DNA of 64,000 nucleotides from Natronorubrum tibetense GA33 (lineage in GTDB: Archaea; Halobacteriota; Halobacteria; Halobacteriales; Natrialbaceae): NCBI RefSeq assembly GCF_000383975.1, contig NZ_KB913017.1, forward strand, positions 2,841,527-2,905,526. The letters run 5' to 3'. Made by a program: the position numbers and the translations under genes. Position 1 is the first letter of the stretch, and every line of letters starts with the position of its first letter. Positions 26,882 to 34,172 of this stretch are shown here, piece by piece. Below the pieces are notes generated by a model. The model did no database searches, was not told where the DNA came from, and saw only the letters and a program-made list of their open reading frames with translations.

Positions 26882-29068
26882 ATGAACATGGATCCAAAGC
26901 GGGAGCTTACGAGCGTCGACCTCGCTGCCCTCGTCGGGGAGTTCGGTGCCTACGAGGGGGCCAAGGTCGACAAGGCCTACCTCTACGGCGACGATCTCGT
27001 CCGACTCAAGATGCGGGACTTCGATCGGGGTCGTCTCGAACTCATCATCGAGGTGGGCGAGGTCAAACGCGCCCACACGGTTGCCCCCGAGCGAGTGCCG
27101 GACGCCCCGGGCCGACCGCCGCAGTTCGCGATGATGCTTCGGAATCGTCTGTCTGGGGCCGACTTCGCCGGCGTCGAGCAGTTCGAGTTCGACCGCATCC
27201 TCGAGTTCACGTTCGAGCGCGAGGACGGCACCACCCGGATCATCGTCGAACTGTTTGGACAGGGGAACGTCGCCGTCACCGACGGCGAGTACGAGGTGAT
27301 CGACTGCCTCGAGACCGTTCGCCTGAAGTCGAGGACGGTCGTTCCGGGGTCGCGCTACGAGTTCCCCGACAGCCGGACGAACCCGTTGACGGTCTCCCGC
27401 GAGGTGTTCGATCACGAGATGGAGGAGTCGGACACCGACGTCGTCCGTACGCTTGCGACCCAACTCAACTTCGGCGGCCTCTACGCCGAGGAGATCTGCA
27501 CCCGCGCGGGCGTCGAGAAGGCGATGGACATCAGCGACGCCGGCGAGGACGTCTACGACCGACTCTACGAGGCGATCGAACGGCTGGCGCTCGATCTGCG
27601 AAACAGTAATTTCGATCCGCGACTCTACTTCGCGGACGAGGGCGAGGACGGCGATGACAGCGAGGATGGCGGAGAGAACGAAACGGGAGACAACGGCGAC
27701 TCGAGTCCGGAGCGCGTCGTCGACGCGACGCCGTTCCCGCTCGAGGAACACGTCGAACTGCCCTCGGAGCCGTACGACACCTATCTGAGCGCGCTCGACG
27801 ACTATTTCTTCCGGCTCGAACTCGAGGAGGAAGGCGAACCGGACCCGACCGACCAGCGCCCCGACTTCGAGGAGGAGATCGCCAAACAGGAACGCATCAT
27901 CGAGCAACAGCAGGGGGCGATCGAGGGCTTCGAGCAGGAGGCCGACATGCTGCGCGAGCAGGCGGAGTCGCTGTACGCCGAGTACGGCCTGGTCGACGAC
28001 ATCCTCTCGACGATTCAGGAGGCGCGCGCCCAGGACCGGCCCTGGGACGAGATCGAGGAGCGCTTCGAGGCCGGCGCGGAACAGGGGATTGAGGCCGCCG
28101 AGGCGGTCATCGACGTCGACGGTAGCGAGGGCGTCGTGACCGTCGACGTCGACGGCGAGTACATCGATCTCGAGACCACACAGGGCGTCGAGCAGAACGC
28201 CGACCGACTCTACACCGAGGCCAAAGCCGTCGAGGATAAAAAGGAGGGGGCGCTTTCGGCCATCGAAAACACCCGGAAGGATCTCCAGGAAGCCAAGCGT
28301 CGTCGCGACCAGTGGGAGGCCGACGATGGCGAGGACGAGGGAGACGACGCGGACGAGGAGGAGCGCGAGGATCGAGATTGGCTCTCGATGCCCTCCGTTC
28401 CGGTCCGCGAGAACGAGCCCTGGTACGACCGGTTCCGCTGGTTCTACACCAGCGACGGCTACCTCGTGATCGGTGGACGCAACGCCGACCAGAACGAGGA
28501 GTTGGTGAAAAAGTACCTCGAGCCCGGCGACAAAGTGCTCCACACGCAGGCCCACGGCGGCCCCGTCACCGTCCTAAAGGCGACCGATCCGAGTGAGGCG
28601 TCCTCCTCGGACATCGAACTGCCCGAAACGAGCATCGAGGAGGCCGCCCAGTTCGCCGTCTCCTACGCGTCGGTCTGGAAGGACGGCCGCTACGCGGGCG
28701 ACGTCTACGCGGTCGACTCCGACCAGGTCACGAAGACGCCCGAGAGCGGGGAGTACCTCGAAAAAGGTGGCTTTGCGATCCGCGGCGACCGAACCTACTA
28801 CGACGACACGCCCGTCGGAGTCGCGGTCGGCATCCAGTGTGAACCATATACGCGCGTTATCGGCGGGCCGCCGTCGGCCATCGTGGATCAGGCGGCGACG
28901 ACGATCGAACTCGAGCCCGGTCGCTATGCGCAGGCCGACGCGGCCAAACGGATTTATCGACGGTTCCGCGAGCAGTTCGAGGACGAGTCGTTCGTCCGCA
29001 AGATCGCCAGCCCGGATCGCATTCAACACTTCATGCCACCGGGCGGGAGTCGGATCGCTGAGGAGTGA
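26882..29068 (+). CDS. rqcH: Ribosome rescue factor RqcH/NEMF (NFACT protein)
   Basis: A 728-residue protein. It starts (M)NMDPKRELTSVDLAALVGEFGAYEGAKVDKAYLY with the NFACT-N domain (to about 200), then tandem helix-hairpin-helix, an acidic insert and a coiled coil (about 330-490, RQEREI-type heptads). The NFACT-R domain around 505-640 contains WYDRFRWFYTSDGYLVIGGRNADQNEELVKKYL and THAQAHGGPV-like sequence. NEMF/Rqc2 family proteins bind the stalled large subunit and add C-terminal tails (alanine in bacteria and archaea). A second ATG two codons inside is possible. It is not adjacent to pelota, which lies about 10 kb away. Confidence 0.93.
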   Translation: MNMDPKRELTSVDLAALVGEFGAYEGAKVDKAYLYGDDLVRLKMRDFDRGRLELIIEVGEVKRAHTVAPERVPDAPGRPPQFAMMLRNRLSGADFAGVEQFEFDRILEFTFEREDGTTRIIVELFGQGNVAVTDGEYEVIDCLETVRLKSRTVVPGSRYEFPDSRTNPLTVSREVFDHEMEESDTDVVRTLATQLNFGGLYAEEICTRAGVEKAMDISDAGEDVYDRLYEAIERLALDLRNSNFDPRLYFADEGEDGDDSEDGGENETGDNGDSSPERVVDATPFPLEEHVELPSEPYDTYLSALDDYFFRLELEEEGEPDPTDQRPDFEEEIAKQERIIEQQQGAIEGFEQEADMLREQAESLYAEYGLVDDILSTIQEARAQDRPWDEIEERFEAGAEQGIEAAEAVIDVDGSEGVVTVDVDGEYIDLETTQGVEQNADRLYTEAKAVEDKKEGALSAIENTRKDLQEAKRRRDQWEADDGEDEGDDADEEEREDRDWLSMPSVPVRENEPWYDRFRWFYTSDGYLVIGGRNADQNEELVKKYLEPGDKVLHTQAHGGPVTVLKATDPSEASSSDIELPETSIEEAAQFAVSYASVWKDGRYAGDVYAVDSDQVTKTPESGEYLEKGGFAIRGDRTYYDDTPVGVAVGIQCEPYTRVIGGPPSAIVDQAATTIELEPGRYAQADAAKRIYRRFREQFEDESFVRKIASPDRIQHFMPPGGSRIAEE

Positions 29069-29157
29069 CTGGTCGGTGAGCCAGCAGTCCGGCGCGAAAG
29101 CAGCTATCGAACCGGGCTTAATGTTGTTATCTTGAGGGACTGTCGATCGTCCCGGTC

Positions 29158-29195
29158 CGAGACGCGGTCGGTTCGCCCGACCAAATCGCGTCTCG
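29158..29195. other. Two-tier hairpin between rqcH and the cDPG operon
   Basis: A 9-bp perfect stem (arms at 29158-29166 and 29187-29195) encloses an inner GTCGG/CCGAC stem (29167-29171 and 29177-29181) with a short loop. It lies 89 bp past the rqcH stop and upstream of the likely TATA element of the next gene (about 29245-29251). It is therefore more likely a 3' end or processing structure of the rqcH transcript, or a binding site, than a 5' leader element of cpgS. Confidence 0.4.
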
Positions 29196-29302
29196 AGGAT
29201 ACGATCTTCGCTGCGGGAATGTCACCGCTACACCTCTAGGCGGTGTTATAGCATGGCTAGTGTTTTTTCTCGACAAGGGTGGGGAGAATGGTACCGAAGC
29301 TC

Positions 29303-30733
29303 ATGAGTGAGACATCAACTAATGCGAAAATGCCCCTTCACCTGTCCGACGCCGCCCTCGACCGACTCGATGGGGACGACGCCATCTGCCTGGTCGACGG
29401 GGAGCATTATCCGCCAGTAACGACGGCAACGCTCGAGGCACTCGAAGCGAACGACGCGGTTGTCTCCGGACTCGTCTTTCTGGGTGGGACCGAAAAAATC
29501 GAAGACCCGACGGAGGCGTTAGCAGCAACCGGAACTGCCGCCGAAATCTATACCCCGGACGGTGACGTTCTCGACGCGATCGAACGGGCGATTCTCGAAC
29601 AGGACCCGTCGCTCGTCGTCGACCTGTCGGACGAACCGGTCGTGACCTACGAGGATCGATTCGAGATCGCATCGATGATCTTAACCCACGGCGTCGACTA
29701 CATCGGTGCGGATTTCGTCTTCGAGAGCCCGGAGGCGAACGACGTGCTCGAACAGCCGAGTCTCTCAATCATCGGGACGGGAAAACGGATCGGAAAGACC
29801 GCTGTGAGCGTCTCGATCGCCCGGACGATGGACGAGGAGGGATACGATCCGACGATTGTTTGCATGGGCCGTGGTGGGCCGCCCGACCCGGTCGTCGTCG
29901 ACACGAGCGAGCGAACGATCGACGCGGATGCGCTCATCGAACTGGCGGAACGCGGGGAACACGCCGCGTCGGACTACCTGGAGGATGCGCTGCTCGCCGA
30001 CGTGCCCACCGTCGGCTGCAGGCGGTGTGGTGGCGGAATGGCGGGCAATCCCGTCGCCTCGAACGTGGTCGCTGGAGCCGAGCGGACGGCCGACCTCGCC
30101 GACGGCTTCGTCATCATGGAAGGGTCGGGTGCGACGATGCCCCCGGTCGAGACGGACGCGAGGATCGCCCTCATCGGGGCGGCCCAGCCGCTCGAGCACA
30201 TTCTACAGTACTTCGGGCAGTATCGCGTGCAAACGTCGGATCTGGCGGTGGTGACGATGTGCGAGGAACCGCTTGCAAGCGACGAGAAGGTACGACGAAT
30301 CGAGGAGGGGATCACCAGTATCGCCCCGGATATCGAGTATCTACTGACGACGTTCAGACCGGAGCCTGACGAGGACATCGCCGGACGATCGGTCTTCGTC
30401 GCCACGACCGCACCGGAGTCGATCGCACCCACTATCGAAACGACTCTCGAGGAGGAGCACGGCTGCGACGTCGTCGGCCTCAGTACCAACCTCTCGAACC
30501 GGCCCAAACTCCGGACAGATCTGGACGACGGAATTGGCGATGCCGACGTGTTGCTCACCGAGATCAAAGCCGCCTCGATCGACGTCGCCGGGCGATACGC
30601 GAAGGAGAACGGACTGGAAATCGTGTTCATGCACAACGAAGCGACGCCGATCCGCGGGAGCGTCGACAGCTTGGATTCGGGGGTGGTCTCGCTCTGTGAA
30701 CGAACGCTTGCCGACCACAGCCCGAACGAATGA
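29303..30733 (+). CDS. cpgS: Cyclic 2,3-diphosphoglycerate synthetase
   Basis: A 476-residue protein. The N-terminal ICLVDGEHYPPVTTATLEAL is typical of the family, followed by GVDYIGADFVFESP. A P-loop-type segment IIGTGKRIGKTAVSVSIAR precedes MGRGGPPDP. Then come CRRCGGGMAGNP, MEGSGATMPPVETDA and LTEIKAASIDVAGRYAKENGLE. The enzyme uses ATP to close 2,3-diphosphoglycerate into the cyclic pyrophosphate. Starts at 29288 and 29279 (GTG) are also possible, and I chose MSETST. The last bases overlap the downstream 2-phosphoglycerate kinase gene (ATGA), which would make the substrate. Likely TATA near 29245-29251. Confidence 0.9.
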   Translation: MSETSTNAKMPLHLSDAALDRLDGDDAICLVDGEHYPPVTTATLEALEANDAVVSGLVFLGGTEKIEDPTEALAATGTAAEIYTPDGDVLDAIERAILEQDPSLVVDLSDEPVVTYEDRFEIASMILTHGVDYIGADFVFESPEANDVLEQPSLSIIGTGKRIGKTAVSVSIARTMDEEGYDPTIVCMGRGGPPDPVVVDTSERTIDADALIELAERGEHAASDYLEDALLADVPTVGCRRCGGGMAGNPVASNVVAGAERTADLADGFVIMEGSGATMPPVETDARIALIGAAQPLEHILQYFGQYRVQTSDLAVVTMCEEPLASDEKVRRIEEGITSIAPDIEYLLTTFRPEPDEDIAGRSVFVATTAPESIAPTIETTLEEEHGCDVVGLSTNLSNRPKLRTDLDDGIGDADVLLTEIKAASIDVAGRYAKENGLEIVFMHNEATPIRGSVDSLDSGVVSLCERTLADHSPNE

Positions 30734-31611
30734 CGGACGTACTCAAAGACGGGAACAAACATCCGTTCTCGAAGGGACTGCTTGCCACCTCGCTGGCGAT
30801 CACCGGATTACCACTGGAGGAACGATACGAGATCGTCAGGGAGATCGATTGCGAACTCGATCGGGTCGAGGTCGTCCACTCGAGGGAGATCCAACAGCTG
30901 GTGCAACGGAAACTGCAAGAGAGAGGATTGCAAAGAGAGGAGAAATTTTACAGGGTAACCAGACAGCTGTCGGAGCTGGAGAAACCGCTGTTTATCCTGC
31001 TGGGCGGCACCGCAGGGATCGGCAAGTCGACGCTCGCCATCGAACTCGCTCACCGACTCGACATCAATAGGATCATCGAAACCGACACTGTCCGCGAGAT
31101 CATGCGAAATATGGTATCGACGGAACTGGTCCCGTCCCTGTACCGGTCCAGTTTCAACGCCGACGAAACGGTGAAAGCCGACCTGGTGGATGACCCCCTC
31201 ATCTACGGGTTCAATCAGCAGGTCAACGTCGTGAGTACAGGGGTCAAGCCGGTCATCGATAGGGGCATCGAAGAGGGCGTGAACTCGATCGTCGACGGCG
31301 TCCACGTCGTGCCGGGATATCTGGGGATGAGGGATCGGGACGACTGTCATACCTTTCGGTACGTTCTCGAGGTGCCGGATGAAGGGGAACACGGCAGACG
31401 GTTTCAGACCAGAGCGAACACGAGCAACAGGAACGCCGGACGGTACCTCGAGAACATCGAGGACATCCGGACGCTTCAGGAGTACATCGTCGAGGAAGGG
31501 AGACGGAACGGAGCGACGATTATCACCAACGAGAATATGGAACAGACGATCGAGGAGATCATAGACGACGTGACGACCGAACTGGAGCCGCTAGTGGCAT
31601 CTTCAGCTTGA
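30730..31611 (+). CDS. 2-phosphoglycerate kinase
   Basis: A 293-residue protein. An ATP-cone-like N-terminus (SKGLLATSLAITGLPLEERYEI VREI region) is followed by a P-loop kinase domain: Walker A is LLGGTAGIGKSTLAIELA (about residue 95), then RIIETDTVREIMRNM, SSFNADETVKADLVDDPLIYGFNQQ and VDGVHVVPGYL. This is the 2-phosphoglycerate kinase of cDPG-making methanogens, which forms 2,3-diphosphoglycerate for the upstream cpgS product. It overlaps cpgS by 4 bp. Thirteen of 26 arginine codons are AGA or AGG, unlike the neighbouring core genes, which use CGN almost exclusively. That bias suggests acquisition from a non-haloarchaeal source. Confidence 0.9.
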   Translation: MTDVLKDGNKHPFSKGLLATSLAITGLPLEERYEIVREIDCELDRVEVVHSREIQQLVQRKLQERGLQREEKFYRVTRQLSELEKPLFILLGGTAGIGKSTLAIELAHRLDINRIIETDTVREIMRNMVSTELVPSLYRSSFNADETVKADLVDDPLIYGFNQQVNVVSTGVKPVIDRGIEEGVNSIVDGVHVVPGYLGMRDRDDCHTFRYVLEVPDEGEHGRRFQTRANTSNRNAGRYLENIEDIRTLQEYIVEEGRRNGATIITNENMEQTIEEIIDDVTTELEPLVASSA

Positions 31612-31788
31612 CATGGAGCGTCGAATCCAGTCGTGGCGGTTGGTTCGGCCCTGCAGTCACCGACTGAGAAGCGACGAATCGACTCGGGGGATCTTCCAAA
31701 TGCCGCCGACGGCGACGAAGAGACGAACGACACCTACGGACGATGCACGTCCGCTCGCACGATCGCACACTGACAATTCACAGCAGGA

Positions 31789-32568
31789 ATGGTAGTTGCA
31801 GATCTCCACGTACACACGACGAACTCGGATGGAACCCTAACGCTTTCGACGCTTCCCGAAGCCGCTGAACGGGCTGGCGTCGAGGCAGTTGCAGTCACCG
31901 ATCACGATCGGGTCCATCCCGATCTGGATCGTCCGCTGACCAGTTGTGACGGAATCGAAATCGTCCACGGCATCGAACTGGGCGTGACAACCGGAACGCT
32001 GCGCGTCGACCTGCTCGGCTACGGCGTCCGGCGATCGGAGCGTCTGCAGGAACTCCTCGAGACGGTACAAGCGAACCGGGTCGAGCGCGCACGACAGATT
32101 GTGGCCGGCGTCGAGGACAGACTCGGCGTCGAGTTAGATATCGACGTCGAACCCGGAATCCATCGGACGCACATCGCCCACGCGATCGACCGCAGCGACG
32201 CGCCGTACGATTACCGACGCGCCAGAGACGAACTCATCGGAGACGGCTGTCCGTGCCACGTCTCGCGGACGGTTCCCGGATTCGATCGCGGACGACGCGT
32301 GCTCTCGGAGGCCTGTGCACTGGTCGGACTCGCACACCCGCTGCGGTACCCCGATCCGGAGCGCGCACTGGCGCTATCCGCGGACCTCGACGCCGTCGAA
32401 CTCGCCTATCCTTACGACCGGGCCGTCGACGTCGAACCCGTCGTGGCGGCGATCGACGACCACGACCTGGTGCCGACGGGTGGGAGTGACGCCCACGACG
32501 ACCGACTCGGACTTGCTGGGGTGGACCGAGCAACCTACGATCGTGTTCGATCGAGAATACTGGATTGA
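31789..32568 (+). CDS. PHP-domain phosphoesterase
   Basis: A 259-residue protein with the PHP metal-binding motifs in order: ADLHVHTTNSDGTLTLSTL, AVTDHDRVHPD, GIELG, GLAHPLRYP and TGGSDAHDDRLG. These are the signature histidines and aspartates of the family, which hydrolyses phosphoester bonds (histidinol phosphatase, RNase AM/YciV-type nucleases). The length suits a stand-alone nucleotide phosphatase. It follows the cDPG operon by 177 bp. Whether it belongs to the same pathway, for example opening or dephosphorylating cDPG, is speculation. Confidence 0.87.
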   Translation: MVVADLHVHTTNSDGTLTLSTLPEAAERAGVEAVAVTDHDRVHPDLDRPLTSCDGIEIVHGIELGVTTGTLRVDLLGYGVRRSERLQELLETVQANRVERARQIVAGVEDRLGVELDIDVEPGIHRTHIAHAIDRSDAPYDYRRARDELIGDGCPCHVSRTVPGFDRGRRVLSEACALVGLAHPLRYPDPERALALSADLDAVELAYPYDRAVDVEPVVAAIDDHDLVPTGGSDAHDDRLGLAGVDRATYDRVRSRILD

Positions 32569-33068
32569 GGCGGTCTGGGTAACAGACCGAGCAACCCCGA
32601 TACGGGTCGCGGTCGCCCCGGTCGTGGCGTACTGCAGTCAGGCGTTGCTTCCCCGCGTTAGTCATACAGTTAGTTATTATCGCTCACGGCTGCTACTGGA
32701 GCGCAGTGGAGGTCTATATACTCCTCCCTTTGACTCATATACAGCGTTATCTACTCCCGTTGTTTTCTGAAACGTGTGGCGAAGGCCGTGGTTGATCGGT
32801 GGAACGAACAGTCGCCGATTGTAGCGGAGCCCCAACACTCGAGAGGCGTCCGAACTGAGACGGATAGACCAGCCGAATCGGGCTGTCAGTGCTGGCTACC
32901 GATGTTACACCACTGCAAAAAGCGTGGACGATCGAACGTCGAGAGTCATCCGTCCTCAGTGACGATCCATACAGCAACCGCCGCATCGGTCCGGGCCGGC
33001 GTCGAACCCCCACAACCCACACAAAAATGAGGAATACTCGCTCACGAGCCAGCCGATCGCCAGTCGTA
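32569..33068. other. Intergenic region between the two PHP genes
   Basis: About 500 bp. It holds the TATA palindrome at 32708-32727 and otherwise sequence of mixed composition. An 84-codon frame (32776-33030) starts with GTG about 50 bp past the palindrome. It is basic and Cys/His-containing, overlaps another weak frame, and does not show haloarchaeal acidity, so I do not call it a gene. Confidence 0.45.
32708..32727. promoter_or_regulatory. Inverted repeat enclosing a TATA-like core
   Basis: GGAGG (32708-32712) and CCTCC (32723-32727) flank a central TATATA (32715-32720), a palindrome whose centre is a TATA box. This looks like an operator built over a promoter. The first credible gene downstream, the second PHP protein, starts more than 300 bp away, so either it has a long leader or a small unrecognised gene lies between. 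Confidence 0.4.
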
Positions 33069-34097
33069 ATGAATCCCTACGCTGCCGTCGACTGGGAGAC
33101 CACCGACCAGTGTCTCTCCCAGTTTCACCTCCACGAGCCGCGAAACTGGATCGATCCGGAGTCGGCCACTCACGACCCAGCCGGCGAGATAGCCGACGGC
33201 GGGGATCAAGAGCGATCCTCGCCCGGGGATCTCATCGACAAGTACCAGTTCGCCGGCTACAGTGCCCTCGCCGTGACCGAACACGAGTACTACGTCGACG
33301 GGACCAAGCACAAAGGCGAGCCCTTCTTCGAGGACCTCGACGTGACCAGCTGGCCGTGGTCGCAGTGGGAGCGAAACGGAGGGACAGGCGACATGATTCC
33401 GATACAGGGTGCCGAGCTGCGCGGAACCGTCGAGGGTATCGACGAGCGCCACGATATCGTGAGTCTCGGAACCGATCTCGGACACGGTCGCGGACAATCC
33501 CTCCTGCAAGTCGCCACCGAAATCGATGAGCGTGGTGGCGTCTCGTTTCTCCCACACCCGGGGCGATACCCCCAGCCCGAAGGTCTCGAAGCCTACGTGG
33601 AGTTGTTCGAGCGGGTCGAAACCGTACTTGGTGTCGAGGCGTTCAACGCGCGAGACCGGTATCCAGGTTGCCGGAACATCTGGGACGAGCTACTCGTCGA
33701 GTTCGGATCTCGACGACCGATTTGGGCGTTCGCAAACGACGATTATCACGCCAGGCCACGGTCGCCGGAAAACGAGCGATTCGATCGCTCTCGAACCGTA
33801 CTGTTACTCGAGGAACGATCGCCGGCGGGCGTCATCGACGCGTTGCGGGCTGGCCGAACTTACGTTCAGTACAACGGAGACAGTATCGCCCCGGCAATCG
33901 ACTCGATCACCGTCGACGACGGTCGCGCTCGCGTCGCGTCGCCGGAGGCGACGTCGGTTCGGTGGATCGGTGACGGCGACCCAATTGACACCGGAACCAC
34001 CCTCTCGCTGAGGGACGTGTCGAGCACGTACGTTCGCGCTGAAGCGTCCGTGCCGGGTGGCGCGGTAAGCTGCACACAACCACTGTTTCTCTCCTGA
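33069..34097 (+). CDS. PHP-superfamily protein with C-terminal beta domain
   Basis: A 342-residue protein from MNPYAAVDWETTDQCLSQFHLHEPRNW. The PHP fold is visible but variant: QFHLHEP in place of HxHxxxSDG, GYSALAVTEHEYYVDG, IQGAELRG, VSFLPHPGRYPQPEG and WAFANDDYHARPRS. After residue about 270 comes an extra beta-rich domain (SITVDDGRARVASPEATSVRWIGDGDPIDTGTTL), seen in several PHP proteins of secreted or carbohydrate contexts. No signal peptide is clear. An ATG at 33027 would add 14 basic residues. The function is not known, and a phosphodiesterase is likely. Confidence 0.8.
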   Translation: MNPYAAVDWETTDQCLSQFHLHEPRNWIDPESATHDPAGEIADGGDQERSSPGDLIDKYQFAGYSALAVTEHEYYVDGTKHKGEPFFEDLDVTSWPWSQWERNGGTGDMIPIQGAELRGTVEGIDERHDIVSLGTDLGHGRGQSLLQVATEIDERGGVSFLPHPGRYPQPEGLEAYVELFERVETVLGVEAFNARDRYPGCRNIWDELLVEFGSRRPIWAFANDDYHARPRSPENERFDRSRTVLLLEERSPAGVIDALRAGRTYVQYNGDSIAPAIDSITVDDGRARVASPEATSVRWIGDGDPIDTGTTLSLRDVSSTYVRAEASVPGGAVSCTQPLFLS

Positions 34098-34172
34098 GAC
34101 GGTCTATTCTGGATAGTCTGGCTGATCCCTTCGCCAGGCCGTTGGAACGGCGTTTGTGCGATCGCTGTCGAC

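Follow-up and report, generated by a model that had tools for sequence, protein, structure and literature searches.

Cyclic 2,3-diphosphoglycerate (cDPG) has been described as exclusive to hyperthermophilic methanogens (PMC10690619), and in one of these, Methanothermus fervidus, the pathway consists of 2-phosphoglycerate kinase (2PGK) and cDPG synthetase (cDPGS). The original prediction for the locus discussed here likewise named only thermophilic methanogens as established cDPG producers. Such a view is already too narrow, because the gut methanogen Methanobrevibacter smithii is listed as accumulating cDPG in the passages of PMC1224877 drawn on here, and because the synthetase gene has been inferred in an ancestor of the ammonia-oxidising archaea, which later lost it. 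According to the same passages, Methanothermobacter hydrolyses cDPG with a membrane-bound activity (PMC1224877, citing van Alebeek 1994), and its cDPG turns over quickly, varies only slightly with salt and behaves like a reserve of carbon and phosphate (PMC1224877). Haloalkaliphilic relatives of the organism considered here accumulate another anionic solute, sulfotrehalose, at amounts comparable to K+.

The window, that is, the whole stretch of 64,000 nucleotides of Natronorubrum tibetense GA33 that was analysed, contains full-length homologues of both genes of the M. fervidus pathway, with a synthetase that is 47% identical to the M. fervidus enzyme (8ORK) across 447 aligned residues and keeps its catalytic and substrate residues. 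In contrast to the hyperthermophilic methanogen, the host is an aerobic haloalkaliphile, the genes overlap in an operon, two PHP phosphoesterases are added, the synthetase is strongly acidic and the whole forms a mobile, sporadic cassette (Table 1). Taken whole, with synthesis, recycling, reserve role and transfer, the locus is best explained as a four-gene cassette for cDPG metabolism that was acquired horizontally, a reading that we consider reasonably probable. The two overlapping genes of the original prediction lie exactly at the coordinates given for them, both intact and sharing 4 bp (ATGA, 30730-30733), and the finding lies well outside what chance would give. They had been taken for a complete two-gene operon; both are there, but the unit goes on to 34097 with two genes for PHP-type phosphoesterases.

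Table 1. Features of the cassette, its surroundings and its relic (positions in the window unless a contig is named)
Feature	Position	Strand	Remarks
rqcH-like gene	26882..29068	+	left flank of variable site
Cassette extent	29192..34103		blastn block 88.6% identical to N. thiooxidans, versus 80.7% in the upstream rqcH block
cpgS homologue, cDPG synthetase-like (cDPGS)	29303..30733	+	476 aa; phmmer to 8ORK, E 1.8e-126
Walker A / P-loop GTGKRIGKT of cDPGS	29774..29800	+	residues 158-166, equal to M. fervidus 142-150; 9/9 residues identical to 8ORK
2-phosphoglycerate kinase (2PGK) homologue	30730..31611	+	293 aa; ATP-cone-like N-terminus and P-loop kinase; PRK04220, E 4.1e-87
P-loop GGTAGIGKST of 2PGK homologue	31003..31032	+	residues 92-101, from alignment
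PHP1, PHP-domain phosphoesterase	31789..32568	+	259 aa; PF02811, 34.7 bits versus cut-off 26.4
PHP2, second PHP-type metallohydrolase	33027..34097	+	356 aa; start placed by comparison with relatives, reading frame open from 32889
Right flank in the window's genome	34173..34466	-	common to cassette-free sister G116
Relic ORF of N. bangense	L075:9997-10550		cpgS codons 1-127 fused to PHP2 3' end

The similarity of the synthetase-like protein to the M. fervidus enzyme is near full-length, residues 27-474 aligning with residues 7-458 of 8ORK/8ORU, and includes the N-terminal domain that is unique to cDPG synthetase. The gene is intact and present once in the genome, and on strong homology it can be inferred to encode a cDPG synthetase, which would cyclise 2,3-diphosphoglycerate (2,3-DPG) with ATP; the full-length cpgS with its family motifs was thus rightly recognised from the start. 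A third solved cDPGS, 9SXB, is also matched (phmmer, E 8e-101); this protein of 436 residues is less close to the window's cDPGS than 8ORK. Haloarchaeal cDPGS is acidic, with a pI of 4.1 and 1.7% lysine versus a pI of 5.3 and 10.9% lysine in the Thermoplasmata relative, and this acidity fits the expectation for function in molar KCl.

The second gene of the pair, also intact and single-copy, encodes a homologue of 2PGK, most likely with 2PGK function. Its best NCBIfam match is PRK04220 (292 bits, residues 7-286), which leads the next match by 63 bits. In Pfam an N-terminal ATP-cone, under its cut-off, and an AAA-type P-loop are recognised, and the predicted model (pLDDT 87) has a P-loop kinase fold of the nucleoside-monophosphate-kinase type; among solved structures no sequence relative was found. 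The identity originally proposed for this protein is upheld by the full-length best match to the 2PGK model and weakened by a score under the equivalog cut-off of 343 bits, which is an annotation threshold and no biochemical trait, and which only one of the scored relatives passes (G573, 366 bits). In sequence and profile searches, the best matches of the two proteins are cDPGS and 2PGK, respectively.

The two remaining genes are of a different kind. PHP1 is a divergent extra copy of a PHP family that is common in the class (290 of 292 haloarchaeal genomes). Its nearest characterised relatives are the 3',5'-nucleoside bisphosphate phosphatase (2YB1 family; best NCBIfam model, E 2.9e-21) and phosphoribosyl 1,2-cyclic phosphate diphosphodiesterase (E 8e-11), and RNase RNM is also among the nearest named models; PHP1 differs from all three in scoring far under the equivalog cut-offs. 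The substrates of these phosphatases are bisphosphates and cyclic phosphates, whose bonds are similar in kind to those of 2,3-DPG and cDPG. PHP2 has no Pfam match and a weak NCBIfam match to a CehA/McbA-like model (E 1.5e-9, under cut-off). Its metal-ligand motifs (HxH, E, H, DxH) are conserved, with H34/H36, E130, H177 and H241 invariant, and its predicted model, built from 10 sequences with a pLDDT of 81, matches the PHP structures 3e38 (Z 16.8) and 2anu (Z 16.0). A second PHP2 copy with 57% identity lies elsewhere in the window's genome (G000:C1:2099562-2100602), beside peptide ABC transporter genes. Other haloarchaeal PHP2 relatives (L122-L124) are found beside or near inositol-monophosphatase-like genes, which suggests a small-molecule phosphatase setting.

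The gene order cDPGS-2PGK-PHP1-PHP2 is common to the window, N. thiooxidans (L074) and two contigs of metagenome-assembled genomes (MAGs; L005 and L009), and it recurs in a third MAG contig (L004) with ABC transporter genes inserted between PHP1 and PHP2. The MAG cassettes sit amid other flanking genes than the window's, and in them PHP1 begins 1 base past the 2PGK stop codon, versus a gap of 177 bp in the window. The upstream DNA is conserved only in the window, N. thiooxidans, N. bangense and, partly, L004; no clear common promoter was found in it, and a bacterial-type promoter and terminator scan of the window, a scan type ill-suited to archaea, gave nothing convincing.

In the proposed module, the kinase would phosphorylate 2-phosphoglycerate to 2,3-DPG, and cDPGS would close the latter with ATP to cDPG. 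This route agrees with the original prediction, and synthesis of cDPG by the pair can be inferred from full-length homology, ligand residues and gene partnership. We hypothesise, from gene linkage and the chemistry of the family, that PHP1 and PHP2 form the recycling half of the module and probably convert cDPG or 2,3-DPG back to phosphoglycerate, the step that the membrane-bound hydrolase of Methanothermobacter, as it is described in the passages cited above, would perform. The trivalent cDPG anion may store phosphate and energy and balance the charge of K+ without being the main osmolyte; this is the weakest step of the scheme, and the sporadic occurrence of the cassette argues against an essential osmolyte. 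Among the roles originally proposed, those of stabiliser, store and K+ counter-anion, sequence favours none. In the literature no gene named for a cDPG hydrolase or a 2,3-DPG phosphatase was found, nor any paper on cDPG in Natronorubrum, Methanonatronarchaeum or halophiles, a phrase search that may fail on the comma in the compound's name.

The recycling hypothesis follows from the presence of phosphoesterases of two unrelated folds, PHP and calcineurin-type, next to the pair. The closest relatives outside the haloarchaea, two loci in Thermoplasmata MAGs (L070 and L071; cDPGS 55-60% and 2PGK 52-57% identical), share the adjacent pair followed by a phosphoesterase in the layout cDPGS-2PGK-CBS-metallophosphoesterase. 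Unlike the window, they have a duplicated calcineurin-type enzyme instead of PHP proteins, and their proteins are not strongly acidic. The mcr-bearing genomes of another group (f35) have a single-domain calcineurin-type relative downstream of 2PGK, with 35% identity to the Thermoplasmata enzyme, so that in these two groups the phosphoesterase gene follows 2PGK directly or past a CBS gene. The enzyme at L070:12682-14196 corresponds to the single-domain enzyme encoded beside 2PGK in G573 and G565, duplicated in tandem. It is possible that cDPG metabolism travels as a self-contained, transferable make-and-break cassette, in which the PHP and calcineurin-type enzymes would act as cDPG hydrolase or 2,3-DPG phosphatase, and that haloarchaea importing it gain a switchable store of a trivalent organic anion and of phosphate.

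It is also possible, rather than probable, that the pair makes cDPG and that the PHP genes are unrelated passengers, for example nucleotide or RNA-end phosphatases. Relatives of PHP1 and PHP2 occur widely or sporadically in genomes without cDPGS, and the tie of the two proteins to cDPG is therefore by position only; the near-universal family of PHP1 and the inositol-monophosphatase-like and ABC transporter genes that adjoin PHP2 relatives elsewhere are what such passengers would lead one to expect. However, the four-gene order is kept in at least four haloarchaeal contigs with differing surroundings in the MAGs, synonymous divergence is equally low in all four genes, and an unrelated phosphoesterase lies downstream of the kinase in two other archaeal groups. 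These points speak against the passenger reading.

An unlikely alternative is that the enzymes have drifted to another substrate, such as another phosphorylated hydroxy-acid, and that no cDPG is made here. The sub-threshold score of the kinase homologue, the long branch on which one haloarchaeal clade sits and the membership of mevalonate-3-phosphate 5-kinase in the kinase superfamily would be in keeping with such a drift. The ligand residues of cDPGS speak against it. Twelve residues are given in PMC10690619 as contacts of ADP, Mg or 2,3-DPG in the M. fervidus enzyme, and 11 of these are identical in the window's protein (E45, K46, K145, R146, K149, T150, D208, E305, T353, E404 and K406 in M. 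fervidus numbering); the twelfth, P335, was left unscored, as the 8ORK crystal chain and the window's cDPGS both have F there. The conserved set includes the 2,3-DPG contacts, namely the P-loop pair K145 and R146 and, from the partner subunit, E45 (PMC10690619). Furthermore, cpgS and the 2PGK gene travel together, and an identity of the kinase as mevalonate-3-phosphate 5-kinase was rejected on score (73 bits, versus 292 for the 2PGK model).

A search for the pair across haloarchaeal genomes, which had been proposed as a check, shows that the cDPG pair is a rare, horizontally moving cassette and no general haloarchaeal trait. Among 391 haloarchaeal genomes of 86 genera, the window's genome and one congener carry it, the remaining three cDPGS matches and three kinase matches being short P-loop matches. 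Of the 10 genomes sampled in the genus, two carry the genes intact and a third only a remnant; by coordinates and contigs, the intact congener copy belongs to Natronorubrum thiooxidans (L003/L074) and the remnant to N. bangense (L011/L075). Further haloarchaeal carriers are a few MAGs. The named relatives beyond the genus are MAGs as well, placed by their record names in Natrialbaceae, Haloferacaceae and Thermoplasmata, and presumably come from soda-lake brines and sediments.

Both tree and synonymous divergence show that the cassette moved horizontally. In the cDPGS tree the haloarchaeal proteins form a 100/100 clade beside a Thermoplasmata sequence (L007; 98/96), thereby answering the original call for a phylogeny, and haloarchaea and L007 join L008 and the mcr-bearing archaeon G408 in a wider clade (100/100) that is separate from M. 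fervidus and 9SXB. Branches are long in the 2PGK tree, which agrees on the haloarchaeal clade and its L007 neighbour; in both trees root and transfer direction are not fixed. Between the window and N. thiooxidans, dS is 0.22-0.32 in all four cassette genes, versus 0.53-0.89 in sense-strand flanking genes (rows u20025, d39717 and d39725 are antisense frames and were disregarded; row u18588, a partial 66% match with a dS of 0.79, is uninformative in both directions). The cassette therefore postdates the divergence of the two species, and its vertical inheritance from the ancestor of the genus was rejected on this contrast. Haloarchaea may have received the genes from other archaea that inhabit hypersaline lakes, and later handed them on to one another. 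Carriage on plasmids was rejected, as cDPGS had no match in 72,556 plasmids, and so was tRNA-linked integration, as no tRNA lies within the 64-kb window.

The site after rqcH (window 29069-34172; L074-L076) is variable in the genus and holds the cassette, a remnant of it or a methyltransferase-like gene. The latter lies between rqcH and the right flank in the closest sister (G116; flank dS about 0.28), which is without the cassette. N. bangense lost most of the cassette through one deletion of about 4.3 kb, which occurred at short direct repeats, and the fused relic ORF indicates that site and cassette were formerly present there. Absence in the closest sister and deletion in N. bangense make the cassette dispensable. 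That it is a transient genomic passenger of no physiological use in haloarchaea is nevertheless quite improbable, since against its absence from 389 of 391 genomes, the closest sister included, and the deletion at direct repeats stand four genes intact in several genomes, a salt-adapted composition and dN/dS values of 0.11-0.20 versus relatives for cDPGS, 2PGK and PHP1, which indicate purifying selection on these three.

If the cassette is functional in these aerobic, salt-in haloarchaea, cDPG would be uncoupled from both heat and methanogenesis, and a solute pathway would have passed from one archaeon of hypersaline lakes to another. Such a cassette would also offer salt-tolerant enzymes for making the extremolyte cDPG and name candidate genes for its breakdown. 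Natural comparison strains are the cultured N. thiooxidans with its intact cassette, the sister species without it and N. bangense, which lost it.

Elsewhere in the phylum, true cDPGS relatives are encoded by six genomes: G408 (53%), three of family f18, all of one genus (46-48%), and two of f35 (43-46%). An mcrA-type gene is present in all five of these six that were tested, and none was found in the Thermoplasmata MAG genomes carrying cDPGS. G408 could belong to halophilic methanogens of the Methanonatronarchaeia kind, and f18 and f35 would appear to be Methanoliparia-like and alkane-oxidiser-like, respectively. Among 243 sampled Thermoplasmatota genomes, a full cDPGS match occurs only in L007's own genome. 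Genomes with a full-length cDPGS nearly all have 2PGK, mostly adjacent, and N. bangense lost both. In G408, a stand-alone ATP-cone-like protein that resembles the N-terminal part of 2PGK is encoded shortly upstream of cpgS (L064:8695-9150).
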